DNA from: Sulfurovum sp.
GTDB taxonomy: Bacteria > Campylobacterota > Campylobacteria > Campylobacterales > Sulfurovaceae
Direction of reading: 5' to 3'
DNA length: 64,000 nt
Assembly (NCBI GenBank): GCA_027049035.1
Contig: JALTVI010000115.1
Coordinates: 1 to 64,000 of the forward strand
This document shows, in pieces, positions 21,786-26,235 of this stretch (positions are counted from its first letter, which is position 1; every line of letters starts with the position of its first letter). A program made the translations under genes and the position numbers. Below the pieces are notes generated by a model, which saw only the letters and a list, made by a program, of their open reading frames with translations, was not told where the DNA came from and did not search any database.

Positions 21786-22440
21786 AGAAGGCACAGGCTT
21801 ATATCGTGCAGGGTTTTCCTGCCGGTTGTCTGCATAATGTATATAATATCATATGATTAACATAATATAAATTCTATTAAAAAAGTATATCCGCTCTGCC
21901 GGTAGTATGTTTGTATCTGCATGTTGCTCTCATATCAATCAAAAAAATCGAAATTTATGCTGCAAAATATTGTTGCAGAAAAATCACTCCCGTTTAAATC
22001 AAAAAACGGATCTTCATTTCGCACAAACTTTATCTTTAAAAAAAACGACGCAACAGCAATCATTTTTCGACATCCGCAAAAGTTGGCACGTGAAAAATGG
22101 CAGCTTCATATCCTTGGAATAATCAGACACACAAACCTGTTTTAAATCAAAATGAAAATGTGTAATGTCGTAGTCATACTTTTATCGAAAAACTCTTGGC
22201 GTGAAATGTTCAAACTGTATTGTACATGTGCAACATGTTTGTGACAAAAAATGATGGAGAGGTATTTATTGATACATTTTAATATTTGGAAATATATGAT
22301 GAAAGAAGACTTGGGAAGAGAAGTTCCTATATTTTATAATATGTTAATGCCCTCTTTTGCAATCGATGCAGCTTGCAATATGTCCCAAAGTATGACACAT
22401 GTGTGCAAAGTCCCTGTAGATGGTAAACAGAAGCAATTAA
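21786..22440. other. AT-rich intergenic region upstream of the tetR operators
   Basis: The stretch is AT-rich. Its ORFs (for example 21921-22145 and 22251-22502) have poor starts and no recognisable motif, and one overlaps the operator array. I see no RNA gene with confidence. It most likely holds regulatory DNA for the tetR operon. Confidence 0.4.
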
Positions 22441-22540
22441 ATGAACAAACGTTCATTTGTAGGAAACGGACCTTCCTTATATATGAACAATTGTTCATTT
22501 AAAAAAGATAAGAGAGTTTCTAATATGAACAAATGTTCAT
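22441..22540. promoter_or_regulatory. Three palindromic operators O1-O3, 42-bp phased
   Basis: ATGAACAAACGTTCAT at 22441-22456, ATGAACAATTGTTCAT at 22483-22498 and ATGAACAAATGTTCAT at 22525-22540. Each is a 16-bp palindrome (ATGAAC-N4-GTTCAT). Start-to-start distances are 42 and 42 bp, four turns of B-DNA, so dimers bound here would face the same side. They match the usual size and symmetry of TetR-family operators and lie directly upstream of a tetR gene. Confidence 0.75.
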
Positions 22541-22559
22541 ATATCTTGCTGCCCTCCTC

Positions 22560-22588
22560 TTGACATATGAACAAATGTTCACTATAAT
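22560..22588 (+). promoter_or_regulatory. Sigma70 promoter with operator O4 in the spacer
   Basis: TTGACA at 22560-22565 and TATAAT at 22583-22588 are separated by exactly 17 nt. The spacer is almost wholly the fourth operator, ATGAACAAATGTTCAC at 22567-22582, again 42 bp from O3. Binding of the regulator would block RNA polymerase, so the design implies autorepression of the tetR-methyltransferase-DUF2238 operon. An AAAGGAG ribosome-binding site follows at about 22595. Confidence 0.8.
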
Positions 22589-22606: not shown

Positions 22607-23260
22607 ATGGACGGTGACAAGGGCACTTTCGCCCTATCGAAAGGAAGCAAAACCAAAGCCAAAATACTCAAAACGGCACTGAAACTCTTCTCTACCAAGG
22701 GGTACAAAGCTACAACGGTAAGAGATATTGCCGGGGCGATGGGTGTCAAGCAGAGTGCGCTCTACAACCACTTTAAAAACAAAGATGAGATACTTGAGAC
22801 ACTTATTGGTGATCTTACCTCTTCTGCGATCGTGCATCTGTTTGATGACAAGGAGCCTCAGGAGGCTGCCAGAAGCGGAAAAGCACTTTTGGCAGGCATA
22901 GGTACCAAATTCAAGCTGATGAGCTTTGACAGCCAGAATGAGGCCCTTTTCAAGCTGCTGATGCAGGAGATGTTCCGAAACGAGCGTGTCAGGGAGATAT
23001 ACAATGAGCACTTCTATCAGGAGAATGTCAAAAAGCTCTCTACGTATCTCTTTATGATGATGCAGGATGAGCTTATTCGCTCCTCCGACCCGCTTATGCT
23101 GGCCAATGAGTTCTTTGCGCCACTGTTCTTCTATCAGATGCAGGTCAGCCTGCTTAAGCAGGACAAAAAATCGACCTCTTCTGTGGTATCGCTCTTCGAA
23201 AAGCATGTTGAATTCTTCTGGGAGAGCATCCGGATCGAGAAAAAAGAGAGCCTTTTTTAG
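22607..23260 (+). CDS. TetR/AcrR family transcriptional regulator
   Basis: 217 aa. The N-terminal helix-turn-helix (KILKTALKLFSTKGYKATTV, DIAGAMGVKQSALYNHFKNK) is classic TetR. The C-terminal ligand-binding domain is divergent, as usual, so the inducer is unknown. Four near-identical palindromes upstream, one inside the promoter, point to autoregulation. It is the first gene of an operon with a methyltransferase and a DUF2238 membrane protein, which it probably represses. Confidence 0.9.
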   Translation: MDGDKGTFALSKGSKTKAKILKTALKLFSTKGYKATTVRDIAGAMGVKQSALYNHFKNKDEILETLIGDLTSSAIVHLFDDKEPQEAARSGKALLAGIGTKFKLMSFDSQNEALFKLLMQEMFRNERVREIYNEHFYQENVKKLSTYLFMMMQDELIRSSDPLMLANEFFAPLFFYQMQVSLLKQDKKSTSSVVSLFEKHVEFFWESIRIEKKESLF

Positions 23261-23300: not shown

Positions 23301-23918
23301 ATGAAAAAACAGACCGATCTTTTCGCAAACAAGTCAAAAAACTGGGACATGAACTCCAAACGTGTTCAGAATGCAAAAGCGATCGCTGAATTGATCGTAA
23401 AAAATATTAAATTGGATAAAGAGATGGAACTGATGGAACTTGGTGCAGGTACGGGGCTTTTAAGCTACTTTATCGCTCCATTTGTCAAAAAGATTGTTGC
23501 GGTGGACAACTCCCCTTCCATGCTGTTGGAGTTTAAGAACAAATGTGATGAGTTTGCCTGTGAGACAGAAGCAATATTAAAAGATATTACAAAAGACCCC
23601 ATAGAAGGGCGTAGCTTTGACGGCATCATCTCTTCGATGACCATCCATCATGTCGAAGATATTGCCGCCCTATTCCACAAACTCTCTTCACTGCTCAGGG
23701 AAAACGGCTTCATTGGCATTGCGGACCTTGACAGCGAGGATGGCACCTTTCACAGTGACAATACCGGCGTGTTCCATTACGGTTTTGACAGAGAGACGCT
23801 CAAGAAGTTTGCAGAAGCCTCCGGTTTTACCGATATCCGTTTCGAGACCGCTTCGACCATTGCCAAACCGCACCGTGACTTTACAGTCTTTCTTATGACT
23901 GCGAGGAAAGTGGGATGA
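23301..23918 (+). CDS. Class I SAM-dependent methyltransferase
   Basis: 205 aa Rossmann-fold methyltransferase. SAM motif I is LMELGAGTGLLSYFI, motif II carries the acidic VAVDNSPSML, and motif IV/post-I is FDGIISSMTIHHV. This layout is shared with UbiE-like and type 11 methyltransferases. The substrate is unknown. It lies downstream of tetR by 40 nt and overlaps the DUF2238 gene by 4 nt (ATGA). Probably derepressed when the TetR ligand is bound. Confidence 0.85.
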   Translation: MKKQTDLFANKSKNWDMNSKRVQNAKAIAELIVKNIKLDKEMELMELGAGTGLLSYFIAPFVKKIVAVDNSPSMLLEFKNKCDEFACETEAILKDITKDPIEGRSFDGIISSMTIHHVEDIAALFHKLSSLLRENGFIGIADLDSEDGTFHSDNTGVFHYGFDRETLKKFAEASGFTDIRFETASTIAKPHRDFTVFLMTARKVG

Positions 23919-24517
23919 TGCGCGTTGTTTGGGTAGCCGTTTTTTTTGCTGCATTTTTGTGGTCTGCATGGCATCCTAAAGAGTACTTCACCTGGTTTCT
24001 TGAAGTCTTCCCTGCATTGATAGGCTTCGTCCTGATAGTAGCAACCTATCGCACGTTTCCGCTTACACCTTTGCTCTACATACTCATATTAATACATATG
24101 ATTATTTTGATGGTGGGCGGGCACTATACCTATGCTGAAGTGCCGCTCTTTGACTGGATCAAAGAGGTACTGCACCAGAGCCGCAACAACTACGACAAGG
24201 TCGGTCACTTCTTTCAGGGCTTCGAGCCGGCCATACTTGCACGTGAGATCCTTATTCGTAAAGAGGTGGTCAAGAAAAGCCGCTTGTGGCTCAACTATAT
24301 CATCTTGAGTATCGTACTGGCCTTTTCTGCCTTCTATGAACTGCTTGAGTGGGCTGTTGCGGTACTCTCTGGAGAAGCGGCAGATGCATTTCTTGGTACA
24401 CAGGGGTATGTCTGGGATACACAGACTGACATGGCATGGTGTCTTGTGGGTGCGGTGACAGCACTGCTGCTCTTAAGTCGCCTGCACGACAGGCAGCTTG
24501 CCCGCTTAAACAGTTAA
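23915..24517 (+). CDS. DUF2238 (YjdF-type) integral membrane protein
   Basis: 200 aa with about five or six hydrophobic spans. The conserved loop GGHYTYAEVPLFDWIKE and the downstream RNNYDKVGHFFQGFEPAILARE mark the DUF2238 family. The acidic and His residues in these loops suggest metal binding, but the function is unknown. It is the third gene of the TetR-controlled operon and overlaps the methyltransferase gene by 4 nt, suggesting the three act in one response. Confidence 0.85.
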   Translation: MMRVVWVAVFFAAFLWSAWHPKEYFTWFLEVFPALIGFVLIVATYRTFPLTPLLYILILIHMIILMVGGHYTYAEVPLFDWIKEVLHQSRNNYDKVGHFFQGFEPAILAREILIRKEVVKKSRLWLNYIILSIVLAFSAFYELLEWAVAVLSGEAADAFLGTQGYVWDTQTDMAWCLVGAVTALLLLSRLHDRQLARLNS

Positions 24518-24882: not shown

Positions 24883-26235
24883 ATGGAAGAGATTTTGCAA
24901 TTTGTTCTGGCACACCAGATTGAGACGCTGCTGCTTGGCTTTGCGGTTATTGTGCTAGCGTTTATCATCACGCATTGGCAGGAGGTAAAGTTCTGGTGGC
25001 TCAACTTTACCTACAACTTTCCTGTGATTGGAAAATTGTCAATATTAGCACGGGACATCGAAGGATTCGACGAGAATCACAAGTGGTTCTACTCCGAAGA
25101 GCGTCTCTGCCGCGACTACTACAACTTTTACGAGAAAGTTGATGTCGATGATGAATCCTACGACGAAGCAAAAGACTACCTCCACGCAGCAGGAGAGCTG
25201 GGGCGAAAGCCGACACCGACTTTCATCTGGATCATGATCTTTGTACTGGTGATCGTGGAAGCGTTCGGGTTCGCTTACGTATTGGCGGGCTTTACCATCC
25301 CCGGTGCCAGTGAAGCGACACAGCAGAAAGGGGCCATCGGCGTTGCCGCAATGCTCGCCATTTTGCTGGTGTGGCTGACACACCTCACCGGACAGGAGCT
25401 GCACAAGAACACCCTCATCAAGAAGATCAGACGCTGGTACAAAAACGACAATGCCGGGGGTACCAACTGGCGTGACCTCAAGCCTGACGAGAAGCTCATT
25501 ACCATCGACAATACGTTCGATGACAAAGATTCTCCAAACTATATCAGAATGCTCAACAGGCTCGATGTCAACGACAAGGTCAAGACCACCTACACAAAAA
25601 CTATTCTGACATTGGCATTCATCATCGCGGTTGCTGTGGGCGCAACCTATATTCGACACCAGGTACTAGTCCAGGAGATCGCCTCTTCACACGAGAGCGC
25701 CATGAATATCTTCAATGATGATGCGTCACCGTTTGGGGATACCGATGCGAAAGGAGATGATGATGTAGCGGCACTTTTTGGTGACAGCAGCAGTGACGAT
25801 GCCAAGGATGATCTCGCTTCACTCTTTGGTGATGATACGAAAAAGGCCCCCGCTTCTTCGGGTGGAAAGAGCACCAATATAGAAGATGAAACCAATCAGC
25901 GGGGCGGGGACGCTACTTTTATGATTTTGGGACTGCTCTTCATTTTTATTCAGATTCTGGGTATTTTCTTCGGAATGCATTATGACTTTGCCGGGAGAGA
26001 GTCGCGCGAAGCGTATGATCTGCTGCGCGGTTTCAGTACGAAGAAAGCCTTCCTCTCCTACTACGAGCGTGCTAAGACGCATATTGCCAGAGTGGCACAG
26101 CGACAGCTTCAGAAGCTTCAGCATAAAATGAACATCATCAACGACAACATTGGTACCGACGCGGAGACCACCGCCCTGCTCCGCAATAACAAAGACCGTA
26201 CCTTTAAAAAATATCTGGAATTCGAGGACAAATAG
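24883..26235 (+). CDS. Integral membrane protein with acidic LFGD repeat segment
   Basis: 450 aa. Hydrophobic spans occur near residues 8-28, 110-130, 148-168, 240-258 and 350-370. Between the fourth and fifth there is an acidic low-complexity stretch with repeated xFGD units (SPFGD, ALFGD, SLFGD). The C-terminal ~80 residues are helical and basic (LQKLQHKMNIINDNIG). No known family is recognised. It is directly followed, with no gap, by the exported 26236 gene, so the two likely work together in the envelope. Confidence 0.7.
   Translation: MEEILQFVLAHQIETLLLGFAVIVLAFIITHWQEVKFWWLNFTYNFPVIGKLSILARDIEGFDENHKWFYSEERLCRDYYNFYEKVDVDDESYDEAKDYLHAAGELGRKPTPTFIWIMIFVLVIVEAFGFAYVLAGFTIPGASEATQQKGAIGVAAMLAILLVWLTHLTGQELHKNTLIKKIRRWYKNDNAGGTNWRDLKPDEKLITIDNTFDDKDSPNYIRMLNRLDVNDKVKTTYTKTILTLAFIIAVAVGATYIRHQVLVQEIASSHESAMNIFNDDASPFGDTDAKGDDDVAALFGDSSSDDAKDDLASLFGDDTKKAPASSGGKSTNIEDETNQRGGDATFMILGLLFIFIQILGIFFGMHYDFAGRESREAYDLLRGFSTKKAFLSYYERAKTHIARVAQRQLQKLQHKMNIINDNIGTDAETTALLRNNKDRTFKKYLEFEDK

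Follow-up and report, generated by a model that had tools for sequence, protein, structure and literature searches.

A tetR gene and four palindromic operators in front of it, all set on the same face of the DNA helix, were found to lie beside the chromosome-dimer-resolution site dif, at which replicated bacterial chromosomes come apart, in a Sulfurovum genome, and the arrangement recurs in related families of sulfur-oxidising Campylobacterota. In our judgement the array is probably, though by no means certainly, the operator region of tetR, bound by the encoded protein, and a conserved companion of dif with a putative task at the replication terminus; it is the linkage to dif that suggests this last role. 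The features of the window (the whole 64,000-nucleotide stretch of DNA analysed) are collected in Table 1.

Table 1. Window coordinates of the operator array, its promoter, the neighbouring genes and dif
Feature	Position	Strand	Sequence or match
dif, chromosome-dimer-resolution site	21855-21882	-	same core as dif of Sulfurovum sp. NBC37-1 (PMC2731167)
Operator O1	22441-22456	+	ATGAACAAACGTTCAT
Operator O2	22483-22498	+	ATGAACAATTGTTCAT
Operator O3	22525-22540	+	ATGAACAAATGTTCAT
Operator O4, fills promoter spacer	22567-22582	+	ATGAACAAATGTTCAC
Consensus sigma-70-type promoter	22560-22588	+	TTGACA 22560-22565, 17-bp spacer, TATAAT 22583-22588
TetR-family regulator, 217 aa, C-terminal tail KKESLF	22607-23257	+	Pfam TetR_N 2.8e-17
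Class I SAM methyltransferase, optional cargo	23301-23915	+	Pfam Methyltransf_25 8e-15
DUF2238 membrane protein, optional cargo	23915-24514	+	Pfam DUF2238 1.7e-58

An earlier note on this DNA had described four TetR-type operators at exact 42-bp steps, the last of them inside a consensus promoter. Both observations were reproduced at the same positions: the start-to-start steps from O1 to O4 are 42, 42 and 42 bp, and O4 lies between the two promoter hexamers. Within the 64-kb window, three of the four copies match the palindrome ATGAAC-N4-GTTCAT exactly and one carries a single mismatch, while the next-best palindrome outside the array has two mismatches. An Rfam search for an RNA element at the array gave sub-threshold, chance-like matches only.

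The regulator has an N-terminal helix-turn-helix domain (TetR_N, 62.7 bits against a cut-off of 24) and a C-terminal domain that Pfam describes as AefR-like (TetR_C_7, 23.4 bits against a cut-off of 22). Its structure model is all-helical, with ten helices and a mean pLDDT of 83.5; the best PDB matches are TetR regulators, and the nearest folds are those of ligand-binding TetR repressors. Orthologs were identified in 59 of the 78 genomes of the genus and in 91 of the 150 genomes of the family Sulfurovaceae. A quick tree of the TetR proteins groups them by family (f18, f4 and f16 form clades, and f3 stands beside f9), which is consistent with vertical descent. Other TetR proteins were also encountered. 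In one Sulfurovum genome (L061, G031 C146:85-802), the gene of a divergent TetR (41% identity) begins 83 bp past dif and is followed by the methyltransferase gene, without GAAC-N4-GTTC operators. Two genomes of genus g10 (L237 and L238; G118 C101 and G138 C93) carry a second profile-matching TetR gene away from dif, with no operators nearby.

About 100 Sulfurovaceae loci from 10 genera have the array in front of their tetR ortholog, as expected if the palindromes are TetR-type operators. In 98 loci of this family, the number of operators is four in 85, three in 10 and two in 3. The promoter is also kept and, in agreement with the predicted autorepression, O4 falls within its spacer in nearly all Sulfurovaceae loci. 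Variation among relatives is found at the central four bases and the outer positions of the operators. The spacers between them are of fixed length, with sequence identities of 0.13-0.47 in the eight loci measured. Because half-sites and spacing persist while the spacer sequence is random, the region is best read as a constrained operator array and not as a tandem duplication.

Spacings other than 42-43 bp do occur in relatives, and these are of 32-34 or 21-24 bp, i.e., they differ by whole helical turns. In family f16, which includes Sulfurimonas denitrificans, the four operators are spaced by about 32-32-32 bp; in f18 the arrangements are 22-22-22, 22-33-22 or 33-32-32, and f9 and f3 have three operators about 33 bp apart. 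All of the 345 spacings from 124 loci in six families are 21-24, 31-34 or 41-45 bp long, with none of 25-30 or 35-40 bp among them. A resultant length of 0.93 near a 10.5-bp period was obtained for 62 distinct genus/arrangement combinations and was never reached in 100000 random draws; as the draws assume independence, this figure is a guide only. Judged from these sequences, the conserved property is the helix face and not the distance, with two, three and four turns replacing one another. The same-face placement proposed in the earlier note is thus borne out, as spacing in relatives is conserved, being either constant or altered by whole turns only. Loss of the spacing in relatives, which the note had named as a refuting outcome, is not what is observed. 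A rigid dimer-dimer contact across 42 bp was considered and rejected, since the two-, three- and four-turn spacings substitute for each other and such contact of neighbouring dimers is not required. Conservation of the face would fit DNA bends that add up in phase, or an arrangement in which several dimers face one shared partner. With many evolutionary changes made in whole DNA turns only, the operator spacing constitutes a natural experiment on helical phasing.

Autorepression by TetR dimers bound in phase is very likely. As in other members of the family, the dimers would be expected to bind the four palindromes on one helix face, and a dimer at O4 would overlap the spacer between the -35 and -10 elements and block RNA polymerase at this strong promoter. 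O1-O3 would extend the complex toward dif, and self-regulation would keep the level of the complex low.

Other copies of the palindrome, for which the earlier note had proposed a genome search, are few. The exact 16-mer pattern is confined to the array within the whole 2.49-Mb genome. The relaxed 14-mer WGAAC-N4-GTTCW has 9 matches in the genome, four of them the array and five chance-like, compared with 27 for the reversed control pattern. Since the remaining five are chance-like, the tetR promoter appears to be the only evident target in the genome of the window. Sulfurovum genomes contain 0-2 extra sites each, about the control level, and in genera g2 and g8, which show an excess, the sites inspected (G157, G105) fall within ORFs. 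A global regulon or a set of scattered chromosomal marks, of the RefZ or SlmA kind, was rejected on this evidence: the motif is nearly absent elsewhere, and the inspected extra sites in g2 and g8 are intra-ORF. In genus g10, a conserved single intergenic operator, TGAACATTTGTTCA, was noticed between two unrelated genes (L274 and L275; G095 C1:21447 and G111 C8:79346); it is a possible second target in that genus.

A pattern scan of 84,980 species genomes returned 110 stretches with three operators at the pitch of the array. The orthologous TetR is encoded on 59 of them. The remainder are mostly tandem repeats in unrelated phyla, with near-identical spacers, and the array was therefore not accepted as occurring outside Campylobacterota. 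Two stretches deserve mention. On a Flammeovirgaceae MAG contig (L108, JAHEKQ010000019.1:1-8000), four TGAAC-N4-GTTCA palindromes lie at 1318-1445, spaced by 41, 43 and 30 bp. The sequences between them are dissimilar, and no relative of the TetR was found on this stretch of 8000 positions. A Phycisphaerae MAG contig (L115) carries both tetR and the array, and may represent contamination.

The plus strand at dif reads GATTAACATAA-TATAAA-TTCTATTAAAA (XerD arm, centre and XerC arm), the whole site being GATTAACATAATATAAATTCTATTAAAA. The site is intergenic and is the only match in the window; the core occurs once in the genome. It precedes O1 by 558 bp. In Sulfurovum sp. NBC37-1 (G004), where PMC2731167 places dif at 1186929, the array occupies positions 1187524-1187663. 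The cumulative GC skew of the window peaks at 26047, as against dif at 21.87 kb, and the GC skew itself switches sign some kilobases rightward of the array; in complete genomes that begin with dnaA, the array lies at 0.46-0.52 of the chromosome. The published match, the single copy, the intergenic position and the nearby skew switch identify the site as dif. Among 102 loci, dif is present in the available upstream sequence of 77, in the same orientation in 75. The distance from dif to O1 ranges in Sulfurovaceae from 40 to about 1350 bp, and several further loci have a variant dif or an intervening gene. Between dif and O1, about 20-45 bp before the latter, many Sulfurovaceae loci (e.g., L204, L213, L223) contain a short, recurring motif that resembles a palindrome and has the form CCATAAAATGG (in Sulfurovum, CACGTATATAGGGC).

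To obtain an unbiased measure of linkage, genomes were picked by their dif sequence and TetR was located independently by profile; in 66 of them both were on one contig. The tetR start lies within 2.2 kb of dif in 57 of these 66 genomes (28 of 30 Sulfurovaceae, 25 of 31 in f16 and 4 of 5 in f9), and in 63 of the 66 tetR is on the XerC-arm side and points away from dif. ORFs within 3 kb of dif or difH were also clustered for 83 loci (18 genera, five families), a set chosen mostly through tetR, as the 66-genome sample was not. Only tetR was found in every genus (81 loci); the second commonest cluster was xerH (16 of the 83 loci). In 58 loci, the gene neighbouring dif on the far side belongs to one or other of 26 clusters. 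The linkage of tetR to dif persists while other neighbours turn over. It is not obligatory, since dif is present without tetR in G058, G059, G086 and G093 and tetR lies 3-80 kb from dif in a few genomes; nor was any tetR found near dif in families f6 and f15. One small genome of 1.5 Mb (L058, G030 C1:1160500-1166500) carries a tetR remnant with internal stops, followed by three co-directional 201-aa ORFs with an 830-bp period, the first of which matches the methyltransferase; no operators were found at this locus, and no dif by pattern search.

The position beside dif, which the earlier note had missed, could be an inherited gene order without function. The protein would then be an ordinary ligand-responsive autorepressor of a small operon, with four operators providing tight repression. 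We regard this as unlikely, though it merits serious consideration. The autoregulatory layout, the AefR-like C-terminal domain with its ligand-binding structural neighbours and the exceptions to the dif linkage all speak for it, as does the methyltransferase gene downstream of tetR in most Sulfurovaceae, an arrangement to be expected with an ordinary metabolite-responsive regulator. That gene follows tetR in genera g1, g3, g4, g6, g8 and g10, and is absent from this position in g2, g5, g7, g9, f16 and f9; DUF2238 is variably present and rarer. The earlier note had proposed autorepression of a TetR-methyltransferase-DUF2238 unit. Its self-regulatory part is supported, but the cargo is not general, as many relatives have tetR and the array without it. 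Operon regulation was therefore added in particular lineages and is not enough to account for the array; the two cargo genes would be occasional passengers of the autorepression. In several genera tetR stands alone, with its own promoter the only evident target and, in several genomes, convergent unrelated genes behind it, which argues against an ordinary operon repressor. So does the fact that linkage and orientation have survived across five families, with either of two dif/Xer systems, despite the turnover of neighbours.

The second of these systems, XerH/difH, is used by families f4 and f18, where the order is xerH-difH-array-tetR. Here tetR lies 70-225 bp from difH with the phased operators between them, and xerH, confirmed by Pfam as encoding a phage-integrase-family protein, is divergent on the other side of difH. 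In Nitratiruptor sp. SB155-2 (G234), tetR is at 1000611-1001237 on the minus strand, and difH at 1001399 according to PMC2731167. This gene order, together with the confirmed identity of XerH, raises the alternative that the ancestral function of the protein was to regulate the Xer recombinase: the array between the divergent genes could repress both, and in XerCD families it would be a relic regulating tetR only. We find this rather doubtful. The operators cluster toward tetR and are separated from xerH by difH, and in XerCD families their number and phase are still under selection with no xer gene adjacent. Regulation of xerH is thus conceivable in f4 and f18, but would leave the persistence of the array where xerH is gone unexplained.

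By analogy with ArgR and PepA at plasmid cer, the array might instead form an architectural complex that assists Xer recombination at dif. Proteins arrayed in helical phase next to a recombination core would suit such a role, as would the centre distance between difH and O1, which is 62-68 bp in 13 of the 18 XerH loci and 76-105 bp in the remainder; this distance might itself be phased, although 18 loci are too small a sample to say. The idea nevertheless seems quite improbable to us, given that O1 stands at no fixed or obviously phased distance from dif in Sulfurovaceae and that some dif-bearing genomes lack tetR.

A link to replication, with the array acting as a fork barrier or the C-terminal tail of TetR contacting the sliding clamp, is very unlikely. 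About 75 of the 91 Sulfurovaceae orthologs carry a terminal [TS]LF behind a linker whose length varies, 49 of them with Q at -5, so that about half have a Q-x-[TS]-L-F end resembling the bacterial sliding-clamp motif QL(S/D)LF (PMC9690074). However, the window protein lacks the Q, and tails of the [TS]LF type are absent from TetR of f16, f9, f4 and f18; the likeness may serve as a lead only. A fork barrier is disfavoured by G007: its array lies 32 kb from dif, and the skew still switches at dif. Finally, the regular 42-bp period might point to a tandem duplication or another sequence artefact without regulatory meaning, a reading to which we give practically no credence and which is refuted by the comparative data, the spacers being unrelated and both the operators and their period being preserved in about 100 loci.

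The preferred reading is that of a tetR operator region that also belongs to the dif locus, the four in-phase operators and tetR being its conserved fixed-orientation companion in XerCD/dif and XerH/difH families alike. As the linkage suggests, the nucleoprotein complex could act at the terminus by, e.g., marking, shaping or regulating the dif region. More tentatively, and with somewhat more doubt than conviction, we propose that TetR and its phased four-operator array make up an undescribed terminus system of Campylobacterota, in which the sequence-specific complex by dif takes part in resolving chromosome dimers, positioning the terminus or coupling replication to division, and which was kept through the exchange between XerH/difH and XerCD/dif. 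Given that tetR and its operators have remained next to dif through five families and two Xer systems, the use of a dedicated terminus-binding protein by these bacteria becomes a testable proposition.

To our knowledge, dif loci are usually described as a site of 28-40 bp with no fixed partner, except for the recombinase gene in single-recombinase systems. The sites analysed here are those of the dif/XerCD and difH/XerH modules published by Carnoy and Roten 2009 (PMC2731167), and xerH adjoins difH as described there, whereas the available part of that paper mentions no TetR gene or operator array beside dif. Searches of the open-access literature on TetR in connection with dif or XerH, and on TetR proteins with several phased operators, retrieved nothing relevant; resting on open-access papers, the novelty is provisional. 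With TetR autorepressors of the AcrR, MtrR and TtgR type, the system shares the TetR_N domain, a palindromic candidate operator over its own promoter and the all-helical fold. It differs from them in having four operators, whole-turn spacing over 150 bp, a motif nearly absent elsewhere and a position beside dif. At plasmid cer, the architectural DNA-binding proteins ArgR and PepA occupy accessory sequences beside the Xer core site. A candidate DNA-binding protein array likewise lies beside a Xer core site here, but its distance from dif is variable in Sulfurovaceae, and narrower (62-105 bp) in XerH families. RefZ of Bacillus and SlmA of Escherichia coli are TetR-fold proteins with functions in chromosome capture and division. 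Among the NCBIfam models, RefZ scores highest for the window TetR (58.3 bits, below the equivalog cut-off of 180), and the SlmA equivalog scores 30.6 bits (below its cut-off of 120). The TetR fold is common to all three, as would be a chromosomal, non-metabolic role, which is only proposed here; the sites of RefZ and SlmA are scattered over the chromosome, whereas those of the present regulator form one compact array at the terminus.
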